Positions 1,639 to 8,262 are shown, counted from the stretch's first letter. The stretch is DNA of 64,000 nt from Synechococcus sp. CBW1107 (GCF_015841355.1 NZ_CP064908.1:2542001-2606000); one strand, 5' to 3'. Translations and numbers: made by a program. The notes: generated from the letters alone by a model not told the origin.

Positions 1639-1841
1639 AACTGGGACGTTCCCGAAGCCGCCGGTCTGTGTCCTCTGTCCTTGCTGTTGCCGGCGTCGTT
1701 GGCGCTCCCGTTGCCGGTTCCGTGCCTCCGCTGGCCACCTTCACCTTCCAGGAATGGATGTGGAGCGGCGGTCTGATCGAGATCAGTCTGGTGCTGGCGG
1801 CCCTGATGGGGGCCGTCTGGCTGGTCAGTCGCCGGAGTTGA
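1635..1841 (+). CDS. Small membrane protein, unknown
   Basis: A 68-residue reading frame starting at a GTG that overlaps the ggt stop (GTGA), so it may be translationally coupled to ggt. It has an Arg-rich N-terminus (KLGRSRSRRS), a hydrophobic Ala/Val stretch that could be a signal or first membrane helix, and a second hydrophobic helix at residues 47-64 ending in SRRS. I recognise no family. Its 3' end overlaps the convergent HdeD-like gene by 17 bases. The coupling and the two-helix pattern favour a real gene, but a chance ORF in GC-rich DNA remains possible. Confidence 0.45.
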   Translation: MKLGRSRSRRSVSSVLAVAGVVGAPVAGSVPPLATFTFQEWMWSGGLIEISLVLAALMGAVWLVSRRS

Positions 1842-2340
1842 GCGGGGTCATCAGCAGATTGAACGCGGAGAAGCCCAGCGCGATGCCCAGCAGGGTGCCG
1901 ATGGCCCAGAGACTGTCGCTCGGCCATTCGGCGATCAGCAGGACGCCCAGGCCCGCGGTCACGAGTCCATCGGCAAGCACCAGTCCTCTGGCGGGGGTGT
2001 CTGACGCCGCGGCAGAGGCCAGCTCCATCAGCCCTTCGACCGCCAGCAGCAGGCCGGCGAACAGCGTCAGGCTGACTTCGCTGACCACCGGATTGATCAG
2101 GATCCAGAGCCCCCCCGCCAGGTAGAGCAGGCCACTCAGGCCGCGGAACACGCGGTTGCGCAGGTCGCCCGCAGCGGTGAGCCGGATCAGCTGGGACAGG
2201 CCACTGGCGATGGCCACCCCCCCGATCGCGACCGTGAGCAGGGTGGCCGAAACGAACGGCAAAGCCAGGGCCAGGCCTGCCGCCGCCAGCACCAGCCCAG
2301 CCGCCAGCCAGCGCAGGGGTCGGGAGGCGGGGATCGACAT
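1825..2340 (-). CDS. HdeD/DUF308-family membrane protein
   Basis: 171-residue polytopic membrane protein starting at the ATG at 2340 (MSIPASRPLRWL). An upstream extension to 2433 is open but polar and unlike the family. Six short hydrophobic helices in pairs, with the repeated pattern of small residues followed by a Gly-Leu-x-Tyr/Leu-Leu-x-Gly-Gly turn (GLLYLAGGLWILINP), match the DUF308 (HdeD) family. Enterobacterial HdeD is linked to acid resistance, but no function is established for cyanobacterial members. It is divergent from the oxidase operon, with about 125 bases between them. Confidence 0.7.
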   Translation of the reverse strand: MSIPASRPLRWLAAGLVLAAAGLALALPFVSATLLTVAIGGVAIASGLSQLIRLTAAGDLRNRVFRGLSGLLYLAGGLWILINPVVSEVSLTLFAGLLLAVEGLMELASAAASDTPARGLVLADGLVTAGLGVLLIAEWPSDSLWAIGTLLGIALGFSAFNLLMTPLNSGD

Positions 2341-2465
2341 GGCACGGGCTCGACTGCGCTCAGCGTAGGTAGCTGATCCGATCCGATCGGGATTCGCTGA
2401 CTGGGCCGACACCCGTTTCTGCCTGAGCTGCATGGTGGAGGCAGCGGCAGGACGGGCAGGCGCCC

Positions 2466-2963
2466 ATGCTCGAGCTTCTCCCTCCCCTCAACGACCGCAA
2501 CCTCCCTTGGATCGACACGATCCACCCGATCGTGGTCCACTTCGTGATCGCGATGGCCCTGATTGCCTTCGTCTTCGATCTGATCGGTCGCCTGGCGGGA
2601 AAACCCGCCTTGTACGAGGTGAGCTTCTGGAATCTGCTCGTCGCCACGGTGGCGATTTTCATCGCGATCATCTTCGGCCAGGTGGAGGCGGGTCTGGCCA
2701 ATCCCTATGGCGCCTCGCGCGACATCCTCAACCTGCACAGCACCCTTGGCTGGGTTCTGGCCGGAGTGCTCTCGGTGCTCACCGCCTGGCGCTATGTGAT
2801 CCGCAGCCGGGATCCTCTGCAGCTGCCCCTGGCCTTTCTCGGGGCGGGCAGCCTGCTCAGTGCCTTGGTGGTGGTTCAGGTGCTGCTCGGCAATCAGTTG
2901 ATCTGGGTCTACGGCCTGCACACCGTCAAGGTGGTGGAGGCGATGCGCGCAGGTCTGGTGTGA
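2466..2963 (+). CDS. DUF2231 membrane protein (first of pair)
   Basis: 165-residue integral membrane protein, first gene of the terminal-oxidase operon. It has four hydrophobic segments (about residues 20-42, 55-75, 94-108, 120-142). The family signature is IHPIVVHFVIAM near residue 20, with HST at about residue 90 and a further His near the C-terminus (YGLHTVKVV). DUF2231 proteins are predicted membrane proteins with conserved His residues, and haem or quinone binding has been suspected but not shown. The stop overlaps the next start as TGATG. Linkage to CuA-less oxidase subunits suggests an accessory or electron-entry role, which is inference. Confidence 0.8.
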   Translation: MLELLPPLNDRNLPWIDTIHPIVVHFVIAMALIAFVFDLIGRLAGKPALYEVSFWNLLVATVAIFIAIIFGQVEAGLANPYGASRDILNLHSTLGWVLAGVLSVLTAWRYVIRSRDPLQLPLAFLGAGSLLSALVVVQVLLGNQLIWVYGLHTVKVVEAMRAGLV

Positions 2964-3538
2964 TGGAGCTTGGAGCCAATGATCTGCCCTACCGGCTGCC
3001 GATTCACCCCAACCTGGTGCATCTCACGATCGGTCTGTTCGTCATTGCCATCGCCTTCGACATCGCCGGAGCGCTCTTCCCTTTCGAGAAGCGACTGTTC
3101 CGTTTCCTGGCCCTGCCGGTGACCCGGGCCGGACTGCATGACGTGGGCTGGTACAACCTGCTGGCCTGTTGCCTGATCAGCTTCTTCACCGTGGCGGCGG
3201 GTTTCGTGGAGATGCAGCTGGCCGATCCGCTCCCCGGTGTCACCAGCAGCTTCGGCATGGGCAGCACCGCCACCATGCTCTGGCATGGGGCTGTGGGCGT
3301 GGGCCTGCTGTTCTCGATCGTGCTGATGACGCTCTGGCGTGGAGTCCAGCGCTACCGCTGGCGCTGGGAGATGGGACGCCAGGTGCAGTGGAGTTACCTG
3401 CTGGTGGGACTGCTGGTGTTCGCGCTGATGGCCTGGCACGGCACCCTCGGCGCCCAGCTGGGGGTTGAGTTCGGCGTCCATGTCACCGCCAGCCAGCTTC
3501 TGGGCGAGGGCGCCAGTCTGCGGGAGGCCCTGCCATGA
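2963..3538 (+). CDS. DUF2231 membrane protein (second of pair)
   Basis: 191 residues starting at the ATG in the TGATG overlap with the preceding gene. It resembles that gene: PIHPNLVHLTIGLFVIAIAF is the counterpart of IHPIVVHFVIAM, followed by three more membrane segments and conserved His residues (LWHGAVGVG, AWHGTLGAQ). The pair looks like an old tandem duplication that has diverged strongly. Its stop overlaps the ATG of the oxidase subunit II gene (ATGA), so all three are probably one translational unit. The biochemical role is unknown. Confidence 0.8.
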   Translation: MELGANDLPYRLPIHPNLVHLTIGLFVIAIAFDIAGALFPFEKRLFRFLALPVTRAGLHDVGWYNLLACCLISFFTVAAGFVEMQLADPLPGVTSSFGMGSTATMLWHGAVGVGLLFSIVLMTLWRGVQRYRWRWEMGRQVQWSYLLVGLLVFALMAWHGTLGAQLGVEFGVHVTASQLLGEGASLREALP

Positions 3539-4464
3539 CCAGTACCCCACAACGTTTCCCCCTCACCCGTGTGATCGGCCTGGCTCTCTGGCTGGTGCTG
3601 CTCATCCTGCTGAGTGTCTGGATGGGTGCTCAGGTGCCCCGCTGGCTGCCGGTGCAGGCCTCCTCGGCGGCCCCGCTGGTGGATGGCCTCTTCGGTTTCG
3701 AGACGGCCGTCGCCACCTTCGTGTTCGTGGGAGTGGTGTCGGTGATGGCCTGGGTCGTGCTCTTCAACCGGGCCGAGAAGTACGACATGAGTGATGCGGA
3801 GCCGATCGAGGGCAACACCACCCTCGAGATCATCTGGACCGTGATCCCGCTGCTGCTGGTGATGGGGATCGCTGCCTACACGATCCAGGTGAACCGCGAG
3901 ATCGGTCTGATCGGCCCCATGGACCATGACCATGGTCCTGCCCTGGCCAGCTCCGCCAGTGCCGCACCACCTCCCGGCGGGGAGGTGCAGGTGATCGCCA
4001 GGCAGTGGTCGTGGGAGTTCCGCTACCCGGTGGCGGGGGTCTCCTCCACCGAGCTGCACCTGCCGCTCGGACGGCGCCTCGGCCTCCAGCTGGAGAGCAG
4101 GGACGTGATCCACGGCTTCTACGTGCCGGCCTTTCGTCTCAAGCAGCAGGTGATCCCCGGCCGCTCGATCACCCTCTTCCTCACACCCACCCGCGAGGGC
4201 CGCTACCGCCTGCGCGACTCCGAGTACAGCGGCACCTGGTTCGCCGCCAACCAGGCCGATGTGGTGGTGGAGAGCGAAGAGGCCTACCAGGAGTGGCTGC
4301 GTCGTGCCTCCCGCCTGCCGCTCCAGCCCGGCCTCAGCGATGCCGCCCGTGAATACGCCCAGCAGCGCAGCGGCGAGCGCTCCAGCGGCTACGCCACCGT
4401 CGAGCCGGCCCCGCCGCCTCTGGTGAATGTGCCCGGCTCCAACACCCTTCCCCACGACGGCTGA
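3535..4464 (+). CDS. ctaC: Terminal oxidase subunit II lacking the CuA site (ARTO type)
   Basis: 309-residue subunit II of a haem-copper oxidase. Three hydrophobic helices (about residues 12-32, 48-73, 93-117) precede a cupredoxin domain. The family core VIHGFYVPAFRLKQQVIPG is intact. The CuA ligand motif (C-x-E-x-C-G-x-x-H-x-x-M in cytochrome c oxidases) instead reads Asp228, Glu230, Ser232, Gly233, Phe236 and Asn239; only the upstream His193 remains. Loss of CuA is characteristic of quinol oxidases and of the cyanobacterial alternative respiratory terminal oxidase (ARTO), so the electron donor is probably plastoquinol rather than cytochrome c or plastocyanin. The start overlaps the upstream DUF2231 stop (ATGA). 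Confidence 0.9.
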   Translation: MTSTPQRFPLTRVIGLALWLVLLILLSVWMGAQVPRWLPVQASSAAPLVDGLFGFETAVATFVFVGVVSVMAWVVLFNRAEKYDMSDAEPIEGNTTLEIIWTVIPLLLVMGIAAYTIQVNREIGLIGPMDHDHGPALASSASAAPPPGGEVQVIARQWSWEFRYPVAGVSSTELHLPLGRRLGLQLESRDVIHGFYVPAFRLKQQVIPGRSITLFLTPTREGRYRLRDSEYSGTWFAANQADVVVESEEAYQEWLRRASRLPLQPGLSDAAREYAQQRSGERSSGYATVEPAPPPLVNVPGSNTLPHDG

Positions 4465-4468
4465 TCCC

Positions 4469-6160
4469 ATGACCTCCACCGCCGGCGTCGACTCGCGCAT
4501 CCTCAGGGCACCCCATCCGGTGCCCGGTGCCCCGGACAACTGGAAGCGCTTCTTCAGCTTCAACACCGATGCCAAGGTGATCGGCATCCAGTACATCGCC
4601 ACTGCTCTGTTCTTCCTGCTGGTGGGCGGTCTCCTGGCGATGATCATGCGCGGTGAGCTGATCACACCGGAGGCGGATCTGGTGGATCGGACCGTGTACA
4701 ACGGCCTCTACACGATGCACGGGACGATCATGCTCTTCCTGTTCATCTTCCCGGTGCTCAATGGGCTCAACAACCTGCTGATCCCGTGCATGATCGGCGC
4801 CCCGGACATGGCCTTCCCCAAGCTCAATGCCGCCGCCTTCTGGATGGTGCCGGTGTTCGGGGTGATCCTGATGGCCAGCTTCCTGGTTCCCGGCGGCCCC
4901 GCCTCCTCCGGCTGGTGGTCCTATCCGCCGGTGAGCCTGCAGAACCCCCTCGGGCATCTGATCAACGGAGAGGCCCTCTGGATTCTGGCCGTGGCCCTCT
5001 CGGGCATCTCCTCGATCATGGGCGCGGTCAACGTCGTGACCACGATCCTGCGCCTGCGCGCCCCTGGCATGTCCCTGGGCCGGATGCCGATCTTCTGCTG
5101 GACGGCTCTCTCGGCACAGACGATTCAGCTGATCGGCCTGCCCGCCCTCACTGGTGGGGCGGTGATGCTGCTGTTCGATCTGGTGGTGGGCACCTCCTTC
5201 TACCGCCCTGAGGGAGGCGGTGATCCGGTGCTCTATCAGCACTTCTTCTGGTTCTATTCCCACCCCGCCGTCTATGTGATCATCCTGCCGGTGTTCGGTG
5301 TGTTCTCCGAACTGTTCCCGGTCTATGCACGCAAGCCCCTGTTCGGCTATCCCTTCGTGGCCGGGGCCTCCCTGGTGATCGTCGGTCTCAGCCTGATCGT
5401 CTGGGTGCACCACATGTTCCCCAGCGGTGTTCCCCAGTGGATGCGCGATGTCTTCATGGTGACCACCATGCTGATCGCGGTGCCCACCGGCATCAAAGTG
5501 TTCGCCTGGCTGGCCACTCTGTGGGGCGGGAAGTTACGCCTGAATACGGCGATGCTGTTCGCCCTCGGCGGGCTGTTCAATTTTGTTTTCGCAGGCGTCA
5601 CCGGCATCATGCTGGCTACGGTGCCTGTGGATATCCACGTGAACAACACCTATTTCGTGGTGGGTCATTTCCACTACGTGATTTATGGAGCGGCCACCAT
5701 GGGAGTCTACGCCGCAATCTATCACTGGTTCCCGAAGTTCACCGGCCACATGTACTATGAGGGTCTTGGAAAGCTCCATTTTCTGCTTACCTTCATCGGC
5801 ACCAACCTCAATTTCTTTCCGATGCATCCCCTCGGTCTGATGGGCATGCCCCGCAGGGTGTCCTCCTACGACCCGGAGTTCGCCTTCTGGAACGTGATCG
5901 CCAGCCTCGGTGCCTTCCTGCTGGGGGTTTCCATCATTCCCTTCCTGCTCAACCTGGTGAGCTCCTGGGTGCGGGGGCCGAAGTCTCCGGCCAATCCCTG
6001 GACGGCCATCGGCCTGGAGTGGCTGCTTCCTTCACCTCCTCCGGCTGAGAACTTCGAGGAGCACGTCCCCACCGTGATCAGTGGCCCCTACGGCTATGGC
6101 ACCGGCCGGCCACTGGTGGAACACCAGGCCGAGATCGAGCGCTCCCTTCTGCAGGCCTGA
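4469..6160 (+). CDS. ctaD: Terminal oxidase subunit I
   Basis: 563-residue catalytic subunit of the haem-copper oxidase that reduces O2 to water. I use the ATG at 4469, four bases after the ctaC stop; an in-frame GTG at 4427 would overlap ctaC. Visible ligands are the low-spin haem His in TMHGTIMLFLF, the CuB/cross-link segment YSHPAVY (residues 263-269), the CuB His pair in WVHHMFPSG, and the haem His residues in GHFHYVIYG. The usual proton-channel Glu of HPEVY is Ala267 and is preceded by Tyr-Ser, the arrangement described for A2-type oxidases. About twelve membrane helices are expected. Confidence 0.95.
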   Translation: MTSTAGVDSRILRAPHPVPGAPDNWKRFFSFNTDAKVIGIQYIATALFFLLVGGLLAMIMRGELITPEADLVDRTVYNGLYTMHGTIMLFLFIFPVLNGLNNLLIPCMIGAPDMAFPKLNAAAFWMVPVFGVILMASFLVPGGPASSGWWSYPPVSLQNPLGHLINGEALWILAVALSGISSIMGAVNVVTTILRLRAPGMSLGRMPIFCWTALSAQTIQLIGLPALTGGAVMLLFDLVVGTSFYRPEGGGDPVLYQHFFWFYSHPAVYVIILPVFGVFSELFPVYARKPLFGYPFVAGASLVIVGLSLIVWVHHMFPSGVPQWMRDVFMVTTMLIAVPTGIKVFAWLATLWGGKLRLNTAMLFALGGLFNFVFAGVTGIMLATVPVDIHVNNTYFVVGHFHYVIYGAATMGVYAAIYHWFPKFTGHMYYEGLGKLHFLLTFIGTNLNFFPMHPLGLMGMPRRVSSYDPEFAFWNVIASLGAFLLGVSIIPFLLNLVSSWVRGPKSPANPWTAIGLEWLLPSPPPAENFEEHVPTVISGPYGYGTGRPLVEHQAEIERSLLQA

Positions 6161-6163
6161 GCC

Positions 6164-6763
6164 ATGACCATCAGCCCTCCCCTCGATGACGCCCCGACCC
6201 CCCAGGGTCATGACGTGGCTTACGCCAACCACAGCCTTACCGGCTTCATCATCTTTCTCTGCTCCGAGAGCGTCATCTTTCTGGCGTTCTTCAGCGGCTA
6301 TGCGTTGCTGAAGCTCTCAGCCCTGCAGTGGCTGCCGCCCGGGGTGGAGGGTCTGGAGTGGCGCAGCCCCCTTCTGTACACGGTGGTGCTGGTCTCCAGC
6401 AGCGGCACGGTGGCTCTGGCCGAGCGCTGCCTCTCCAGGGGACAGCTCTGGGGGTTCCGTTCCTTCTGGTTGCTGAGCATGGCCATGGGGGCGGTGTTTC
6501 TCTACGGCCAGGCGAGCGAATGGCGTTCACTGGCGTTCGGCATCACCAGCGGCAGTTTCGGCAGCTGCTTCTACCTGCTCACCGGCTTCCATGGCCTGCA
6601 CGTGCTCAGCGGCATCCTGCTGATGGCCCTGATGCTGCAGCGCTCCTTCCGCCCGGCCAACTACGCCGCCGGTGAGCAGGGGGTGATCGCCACTTCCCTG
6701 TTCTGGCACTTCGTGGATGTGATCTGGGTGATGCTCTTTCTCCTTCTCTACGCCTGGTCATGA
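6164..6763 (+). CDS. ctaE: Terminal oxidase subunit III
   Basis: 199-residue subunit III with five hydrophobic helices, starting three bases after ctaD. Family motifs are FLCSESVIFLAFF in the first helix, the TGFHGLHVLSG segment, and the C-terminal WHFVDVIWVMLFLLLYAW. Subunit III stabilises subunit I and has no redox centre. The compact length matches the five-helix form seen in quinol oxidases and in many bacterial oxidases with a short subunit III. Its stop overlaps the next ATG (ATGA), coupling it to the GMC flavoprotein. Confidence 0.95.
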   Translation: MTISPPLDDAPTPQGHDVAYANHSLTGFIIFLCSESVIFLAFFSGYALLKLSALQWLPPGVEGLEWRSPLLYTVVLVSSSGTVALAERCLSRGQLWGFRSFWLLSMAMGAVFLYGQASEWRSLAFGITSGSFGSCFYLLTGFHGLHVLSGILLMALMLQRSFRPANYAAGEQGVIATSLFWHFVDVIWVMLFLLLYAWS

Positions 6764-8262
6764 TCCTCGACGACCAGCACCACGAGGTGATCGTGATCGG
6801 CTCCGGCGCCGCCGGCGGCACCCTGGCCGGGGCCCTCGCGGCCAGGGGCCGCTCGGTGCTGCTGCTGGAGCGGGGCGGAGTCATGGACCTGGCCGATCAG
6901 AACGTGGCCAGCGTCGATCTGTTCCGCAAGGACCGCTATCACCCCGGCGACGATTGGTTTGGCCCGGATGGCGATCCCTTCTCTCCCCAGACCATCTATG
7001 CCCTGGGCGGAAACACCAAGATCTGGGGCGGGGTGCTCGAGCGCATGTGGCCGCGCGAGTTCGAGGGTCTGCCTCTGCAGGAGGGGGTGGCCCCCGCCTG
7101 GCCCCTCAGCTACGACGAACTGGCCCCCTGGTACGAACGGGCCGAGGCGCTCTACCGCGTCCATGGCCGAGCCGGGGTCGACCCCCAGGAACCCCCGCGC
7201 AGCAGCCCCTATCCCCACGCCCCGCTGCCGCTGGATCCGCTCTTCGAGCCCCTGCGCCAGGGTCTGCAGCGCCAGGGCAGCCACCCCTACGACCTGCCGC
7301 TGAGCTGGTCGGAGCAGCTCGACGATCCCAGCGGCGACGCGGAGCTGTTCGGGGTGCAGCCGGCCCTCGCCCATCGCACCACCCGCCTGATCAGCAACGC
7401 CCGCGTCATCCAGCTGCACGTGGATCCCAGTGGCCGCGAGGTGAAGGGGGTGGAAGCCGAGATCGGCGGCCAGCGCTGGATGTTCCGCGGCGACCAGGTG
7501 GTGCTGGCCGCCGGTGCGGTCAACACCCCGGCGCTGCTGCTGCGCTCCCGCAGCACACTCCATCCCGACGGTCTGGCCAATGGCTCCAGCCAGGTGGGCC
7601 GCCACCTGATGAAACCCCAGCTCACCGCCATCCTGCAGCTGGCCCGCGAGCCCCACAGCGGCCGCTTCCCCCGCAGCCTGGGGGTCAACGACTATGTCTG
7701 GGGTGATCAGAACGTCAGCTTTCCGCTCGGTCACATCGAAACCGGCGGCGGAGTGCTGCAGGACGCCCAGTTCGCCGAGTCACCGCCGGTGCTCTCGCTG
7801 ATCACCCGGCTCCTGCCCAACCTGGCTCTGGAGCAGCTGGCGGTGCGCTCGATCTGCTGGTGGGCGATGAGTCCGGTGCTGCCCGATCCCGGGAACCGTA
7901 TCGAGCTGCGCGGGGAGCGGCTGAGCATCCAGTACAGGGCCAACAACCTCGAAGCCCACGACCGCCTCGTCTACCGCTGGCTCTCCGTGCTCAAGGCGGT
8001 CGACGCCGATCCGCTCACTCCCCAGGTGCGCCAGGCCCCCTTCTACCCCCGCGGCGAGGCTCCCCTGGCGGTGATCGGTCATGCCTGCGGCACCTGCCGC
8101 ATGGGCGACGATCCGGCCCACTCGGTGGTCGATCGCGACGGCCGCGTCCATGGCCTGGCCAACCTGACCATCGCCGATGCCAGCGTCTTTCCCAGTTGCC
8201 CGATGGTGTCGCCCGGCCTCACCGTGATTGCGAACGCCCTTCGGATGGCGGAGCGGTTCTAG
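6760..8262 (+). CDS. GMC-family FAD oxidoreductase coupled to the oxidase operon
   Basis: 500-residue flavoprotein of the glucose-methanol-choline family. The N-terminal dinucleotide motif GSGAAGG is at residues 14-20. An FAD-contact stretch (LGGNTKIWGGVLERM) follows near residue 85. The C-terminal GMC signature HACGTCRMG and the terminal SPGLTVIANALRMAE carry the His and Asn that act in catalysis in this family. The substrate cannot be read from sequence. The gene is last in the oxidase operon and overlaps ctaE by ATGA, so co-production with a likely quinol oxidase is expected. Direct electron input to the quinone pool is my inference. Confidence 0.88.
   Translation: MILDDQHHEVIVIGSGAAGGTLAGALAARGRSVLLLERGGVMDLADQNVASVDLFRKDRYHPGDDWFGPDGDPFSPQTIYALGGNTKIWGGVLERMWPREFEGLPLQEGVAPAWPLSYDELAPWYERAEALYRVHGRAGVDPQEPPRSSPYPHAPLPLDPLFEPLRQGLQRQGSHPYDLPLSWSEQLDDPSGDAELFGVQPALAHRTTRLISNARVIQLHVDPSGREVKGVEAEIGGQRWMFRGDQVVLAAGAVNTPALLLRSRSTLHPDGLANGSSQVGRHLMKPQLTAILQLAREPHSGRFPRSLGVNDYVWGDQNVSFPLGHIETGGGVLQDAQFAESPPVLSLITRLLPNLALEQLAVRSICWWAMSPVLPDPGNRIELRGERLSIQYRANNLEAHDRLVYRWLSVLKAVDADPLTPQVRQAPFYPRGEAPLAVIGHACGTCRMGDDPAHSVVDRDGRVHGLANLTIADASVFPSCPMVSPGLTVIANALRMAERF

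Follow-up and report, generated by a model that had tools for sequence, protein, structure and literature searches.

Gene organization of the operon

The window, by which we mean the whole 64,000-nucleotide stretch of Synechococcus sp. CBW1107 DNA that was analyzed, contains six open reading frames between positions 2466 and 8262, all on the + strand, in the order DUF2231a-DUF2231b-ctaC-ctaD-ctaE-GMC (Table 1). Each of the five junctions is either an overlap or a gap of three to four bases. The stop codon of DUF2231a (2961-2963) lies within the start of DUF2231b in a TGATG overlap, an ATGA overlap joins DUF2231b to ctaC (3535-3538) and ctaE to the GMC gene (6760-6763), and the gaps that follow ctaC (stop at 4464, ATG of ctaD at 4469) and ctaD (stop at 6160, ATG of ctaE at 6164) are four and three bases, respectively. 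An earlier note had proposed a six-gene operon at this place, with a ctaC that lacks CuA and with conserved His residues in the DUF2231 membrane proteins; all three observations hold, the latter two well beyond the window, as described below. The first five genes are the known arrangement of a type-1 alternative respiratory terminal oxidase (ARTO), and the two genes directly upstream of ctaC that belong to this arrangement are present in the window (both are DUF2231 genes) and in its relatives. The gene for a DUF308/HdeD-like membrane protein diverges from the operon. The same divergent neighbor is found at four other loci (L139, L140, L144, and L154), and some other relatives have a pyridine-nucleotide oxidoreductase gene in its place.

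Table 1. Features of the operon region, with positions counted from the first letter of the window
Feature	Position	Strand	Description
DUF308/HdeD-like membrane protein	1825..2433	-	divergent neighbor
DUF2231a	2466..2963	+	165 aa, four predicted TM helices; Pfam PF09990 E 8e-36
DUF2231b	2963..3538	+	191 aa, four TM helices; Pfam PF09990 E 4e-35
ctaC (ARTO subunit II), without CuA ligands	3535..4464	+	Pfam COX2_TM and COX2
ctaD (ARTO subunit I)	4469..6160	+	Pfam COX1 E 1e-153
ctaE (ARTO subunit III)	6164..6763	+	Pfam COX3 E 2e-32
GMC-fold FAD protein	6760..8262	+	Pfam GMC_oxred_C E 1e-20; GMC_oxred_N also matched

The oxidase lacks both CuA and the bo3 quinol-site residues

The CuA ligands (Cys, Cys, His, and Met) are missing from CtaC of the window, where the ligand region reads DSEYSGTWFAAN, and from all 56 sequences aligned. 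The genome, a single 3.2 Mb contig, encodes a second heme-copper oxidase elsewhere, of the ordinary aa3-like type, in which the CuA motif CAELCGPYHGGM is intact. When aligned with E. coli CyoB and with the genome's own aa3 subunit, CtaD keeps the heme and CuB ligands, the cross-linked Tyr position, and the K-channel Lys, and its YSHP motif is likewise found in the genome's other oxidase. The quinol site (QH-site) of E. coli bo3, which we take to be formed by R71, D75, H98, and Q101, was located by checking these positions in the fetched E. coli cyoB sequence; none of the four residues is conserved in CtaD of the window or in the other ARTO CtaD proteins aligned. As judged from these alignments, ctaCDE encode an A-type (A-family) heme-copper oxidase that lacks both CuA and the residues of the E. 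coli bo3 quinol site, and neither of the standard routes of electron entry is therefore visible in the sequence. We note that direct oxidation of quinol is possibly compatible with the missing bo3 residues by way of other quinol-site geometries.

The linkage is conserved and probably ancestral

The GMC clade, taken in the genome sample as relatives at about 44% identity or more to the window protein, occurs in 24 of the 244 cyanobacterial genomes sampled, and DUF2231b is found in all 24 of these. Within the window's own family, 8 genomes carry both and 16 carry neither. The neighborhoods examined, in 22 of the other 23 GMC-clade genomes and at 80 named loci, have the six genes in the same order wherever the contig is long enough, except at L173 and L175, where a clade GMC is found with the oxidase not nearby. 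Taxa with this order include Synechococcus, Cyanobium, Prochlorococcus, Nodosilinea, Leptolyngbya, Acaryochloris, Moorena, Hydrococcus, Scytonema, and Rivularia, and the recurrence of one gene order across many cyanobacterial families places the linkage far beyond chance. The distance from ctaE to the GMC gene has a median of 35 bp (45 loci), and in nearly all of the relatives that we saw, the DUF2231 pair stands ahead of the oxidase genes. The earlier note had called for a co-occurrence search and would have given up its reading had the linkage not been conserved in related genomes; we looked for such a failure, and it did not occur. Trichormus variabilis ATCC 29413, a named strain from a culture collection, also carries the whole set; its operon lies on plasmid A, typed as conjugative (L228, 177-12495), with a gene for cytochrome ubiquinol oxidase subunit I directly after it and a TonB-dependent receptor gene about 3 kb away.

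Many ARTO operons have neither a GMC gene nor a gene for a type-2 NADH dehydrogenase-like protein (NDH-2) alongside, which indicates that the flavoprotein is not essential. To follow its history, we used a ctaD tree with 102 rows and with the aa3-like subunit of the same genome as outgroup, on which loci were scored as GMC-linked by a 1.6 kb distance rule. GMC presence changes about four times on this tree versus a shuffled mean of 30, and all of the deep branches hold GMC-bearing operons. The root depends on a single outgroup branch of great length and is not certain, and the count of four is independent of it. Taken together, the few changes and the deep GMC-bearing branches suggest that GMC presence is probably ancestral, with loss in the crown Nostocaceae and in a divergent second ARTO clade, and that the six-gene operon is probably close to the ancestral form of the type-1 ARTO.

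NDH-2 adjoins the operons of a sister lineage

None of the 13 distinct loci of the second ARTO clade has a GMC-clade gene beside the operon. At 9 of them, a gene for NDH-2 (Pyr_redox_2) lies just upstream or downstream on the same strand, often about 400 bp from the operon rather than overlapping it. At L127, NDH-2, DUF2231a, DUF2231b, and ctaC stand in tandem with a gap of 3 bases between the first two. Two further loci (L136, 4-4636; L137, 8278-12691) carry, one after another, genes for a cbb3-like subunit I, a FixO/FixS-type cytochrome, both DUF2231 proteins, and NDH-2, apparently an unusual oxidase cluster. Across the operons compared, the DUF2231 pair is the constant element, and the oxidase type and the flavoprotein vary. 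That GMC and NDH-2 alternate beside a constant pair is our main reason to expect that the GMC protein takes part in electron input or flavin sensing and is not purely structural. In Synechocystis, the type-2 NAD(P)H dehydrogenases NdbB and NdbC and the ARTO subunits have all been found in the plasma membrane (PMC6878006).

The GMC protein keeps its fold and FAD motifs and has a degenerate catalytic site

In GMC enzymes, the catalytic His pairs with an Asn or a second His. The His serves as the base in canonical members (PMC12198266). Alignment of the window protein with solved FDH and GDH places H441 at the catalytic His and S484 at the Asn position, such that the standard His/Asn (or His/His) pair is absent. 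Across the 72 clade members, the Asn is found in none and the His in 16 (lost in 56), and the catalytic positions are occupied by H, N, Y, G, F, Q, S, and L; restriction to the 67 directly linked proteins, leaving aside five at contig edges or without an oxidase, gives 0/67 and 15/67. Paralogues outside the clade keep both His and Asn (49/49). In FAD-GDH, a cysteine-rich loop provides the Fe-S ligands. The aligned loop has no Cys in the window protein, 0-1 Cys in 65 of the 72 clade members, and at least three in 48 of the 49 paralogues. Seven ARTO-linked GMC proteins, mostly from Nostocales (L174, L178, L179, L180, L182, L184, and L190), have lost the Asn with the Fe-S-type Cys loop kept, and possibly represent an intermediate stage.

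The remainder of the protein is well preserved. The FAD-binding motifs and the GMC C-terminal domain are present in the window protein, the FAD motifs are strongly conserved in the clade, and an invariant His (H400) is specific to it. The AlphaFold2 model (pLDDT 89.2) has fructose dehydrogenase/FAD-glucose dehydrogenase as its best Foldseek match. Fatty acid photodecarboxylase was considered and rejected as an identity, as it falls far below FDH/GDH in both the sequence and the fold ranking. The gene is under purifying selection: of the eight close pairs for which dN/dS could be computed, seven gave 0.07-0.19 and one gave 0.56. The retention of the FAD motifs, the fold, and H400, together with low dN/dS, despite the catalytic loss suggests that the protein is maintained, probably for something other than ordinary GMC chemistry. 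The window protein itself may still be active, since H441 is kept, and loss of the Asn is by itself no proof of inactivity because the genome's other, distant GMC protein (G000:C1 about 202800-204600, L222; about 600 aa) keeps a His and shares the Ser at what appears to be the Asn position. No export signal was found in the window protein. At two loci (L033, 13012-17339; L140, 11525-16099), the degenerate GMC gene is followed on its 3' side by an ORF of approximately 900 aa, glycosidase-like by eye, and by a second GMC gene, whose product at L033 keeps His/Asn and the cysteine-rich loop.

The DUF2231 pair is a candidate for electron entry

Four His residues are invariant in each DUF2231 protein: H20, H25, H91, and H152 of DUF2231a in 100% of 63 sequences, and H15, H20, H108, and H173 of DUF2231b in 100% of 62. 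The TM segments and charge bias predict that the Arg/Lys-rich loops are cytoplasmic and that the His cluster lies on the opposite (periplasmic/lumenal) face, a topology that is clearer for DUF2231b than for DUF2231a. The AlphaFold2 model of DUF2231b (pLDDT 81.8) has four long helices. A comparison of DUF2231 with the sequences of solved structures returned nothing beyond one chance-level match, a search of PHROGs returned nothing, and Foldseek gave no match to the DUF2231b model below E 0.1. VIA-align scores for this model reach Z 12.9, within the range for any helical bundle, and those against b561 and cytochrome b6 (Z about 10) are no better than those against unrelated helical bundles. Neither comparison resolves the fold of DUF2231b further than a generic bundle of helices.

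DUF2231 proteins are not oxidase-specific: in other phyla, single copies are found apart from oxidases, and a Gloeothece plasmid carries the pair with no oxidase. About 30 non-cyanobacterial DUF2231 loci, inspected by eye, show varied contexts with no obvious oxidase within the 1.5 kb flanks. The Gloeothece pair (PCC 7822 plasmid; L227, 8986-10097) adjoins SDR and VOC genes, and a gene for a four-helix bundle copper-binding protein is nearby. Given that CuA and the bo3 residues are missing, and that each protein has four invariant His on a predicted outer face, the pair appears to us to be the best candidate for the electron-entry module of the ARTO.

Interpretation

The reading toward which we lean, with moderate confidence, is that the operon encodes a six-gene form of the cyanobacterial type-1 ARTO with a DUF2231 electron-entry module on the p-side and the GMC protein as a cytoplasmic FAD accessory. 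We infer the cofactors and the electron flow as follows. The two DUF2231 proteins would form a p-side membrane module that binds heme, metal, or plastoquinol and, taking over from CuA, supplies the oxidase with electrons. The GMC-like protein, rather than an ordinary alcohol dehydrogenase, would be an FAD-binding accessory subunit at the cytoplasmic face of the chain that either docks to or regulates the complex through the redox state of its flavin or takes electrons from a cytoplasmic carrier, and it would fill the place that NDH-2 holds in the sister lineage.

An alternative arrangement, in which the GMC-like protein helps the oxidase to assemble or to remain stable and its FAD is purely structural, the DUF2231 proteins are passive accessory subunits, and plastoquinol binds CtaC/CtaD directly, would account for the catalytic positions of the clade, which should be free to vary were the chemistry dispensable, and for the ARTO operons that do without GMC. 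We consider it rather unlikely, as the strong conservation of the FAD-binding motifs and the NDH-2-type flavoprotein beside the sister-lineage operons both favor a redox role, and the eight invariant His of the pair suggest ligands.

The earlier note had proposed a possible electron-transfer unit in which an organic substrate, with alcohols as candidates, is oxidized by the GMC protein and electrons pass from FAD through the DUF2231 proteins to the oxidase. One conserved unit of a CuA-less oxidase, two membrane proteins with invariant His, and a flavoprotein is indeed what we find; it is the entry of electrons from alcohol via FAD that fares poorly. The tight operon with its conserved linkage, the retention of H441 and all FAD motifs in the window protein, and the nearest folds, which are those of membrane-linked fructose and glucose dehydrogenases, are all compatible with such a chain, and GMC enzymes that feed respiration are known, such as MftG (PMC11778925). 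However, the clade has lost the Asn throughout, and the His and the Fe-S-type loop Cys in most members, and neither a cytochrome nor a small subunit like those of FDH/GDH is encoded in the operon. Furthermore, with a GMC protein that has no signal peptide and DUF2231 His predicted on the opposite face, direct transfer from FAD to the His site would have to cross the membrane. An alcohol-fed chain is therefore improbable. We would be equally surprised if the DUF2231 pair proved to be an unrecognized heme- or metal-binding entry module replacing CuA that, with an interchangeable flavoprotein (degenerate GMC or NDH-2), makes up a direct flavin-to-oxidase complex able to bypass the quinone pool. 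Least probable of all is that the pair is the extracytoplasmic ferric reductase site behind ARTO-dependent iron reduction in Synechocystis, with GMC/NDH-2 as the cytoplasmic electron source: the lower Fe(III) reduction reported for ARTO mutants (PMC7676907, PMC10119275), the predicted periplasmic His, and the TonB-dependent receptor gene near the Trichormus operon point that way, but none of the proteins of solved structure, whether reductases or others, matches DUF2231 in sequence.

The six-gene form supported here bears on how an ARTO is supplied with electrons without CuA and on what purpose it serves. It also presents a GMC-fold protein that is conserved and under selection beside an oxidase, yet has departed from the chemistry of alcohol oxidases.

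Comparison with known systems

E. coli cytochrome bo3 shares with the ARTO described here the heme-copper fold, the heme and CuB ligands, and the lack of CuA. It differs in its R71, D75, H98, and Q101, which are missing from CtaD, and cyoABCDE contains no DUF2231 or flavoprotein gene. Among solved proteins, the GMC protein is nearest in sequence and fold to the large subunits of Gluconobacter fructose dehydrogenase and Burkholderia FAD-glucose dehydrogenase, which keep the His/Asn pair and the cysteine-rich loop, whereas the window protein keeps only the His of these. Such large subunits work with a small subunit and a cytochrome c subunit, partners of a type that the six-gene operon does not encode. 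MftG, a mycobacterial GMC dehydrogenase that feeds respiration, is likewise respiration-linked and is the best NCBIfam match of the window protein, although the score is 77.6 bits against a cut-off of 387 (TIGR03970); MftG retains the His of its active site, and its gene belongs to the mycofactocin cluster (PMC11778925), whereas the window protein is encoded in an ARTO operon.

The nearest described system is the Anabaena sp. PCC 7120 operon alr2729-alr2730-coxB3-coxA3-coxC3, a type-1 ARTO/Qox formerly called Cox3 (PMC6616624), and in low-iron waters Prochlorococcus carry ctaC2D2E2 (PMC10119275). The Anabaena operon resembles that of the window in its CuA-less subunit II, its subunits I and III, and the pair of genes that immediately precedes them, in the same order; judging from their position and from Nostocaceae relatives, rather than from the PCC 7120 sequence, alr2729 and alr2730 would be DUF2231 genes. 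The review that describes this operon leaves unsettled whether type-1 ARTO/Qox enzymes have further subunits (PMC6616624). In the searchable literature, which leaves subscription papers outside, we found no mention of a GMC gene or DUF2231 with this oxidase; GMC oxidoreductases were nowhere linked with cyanobacterial terminal oxidases, and DUF2231 was named only in an irrelevant context. The earlier note knew of no described complex of such composition. Since the first five genes match the Anabaena operon, this applies to the GMC member alone, which appears to be new. The published Anabaena operon has five genes and no GMC gene, as is also the case for most of the Nostocaceae loci examined, and the sixth gene could thus be overlooked. 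Relative to the Anabaena form, the six-gene set provides a concrete and apparently ancestral list of ARTO subunits, with invariant residues that are open to mutation.
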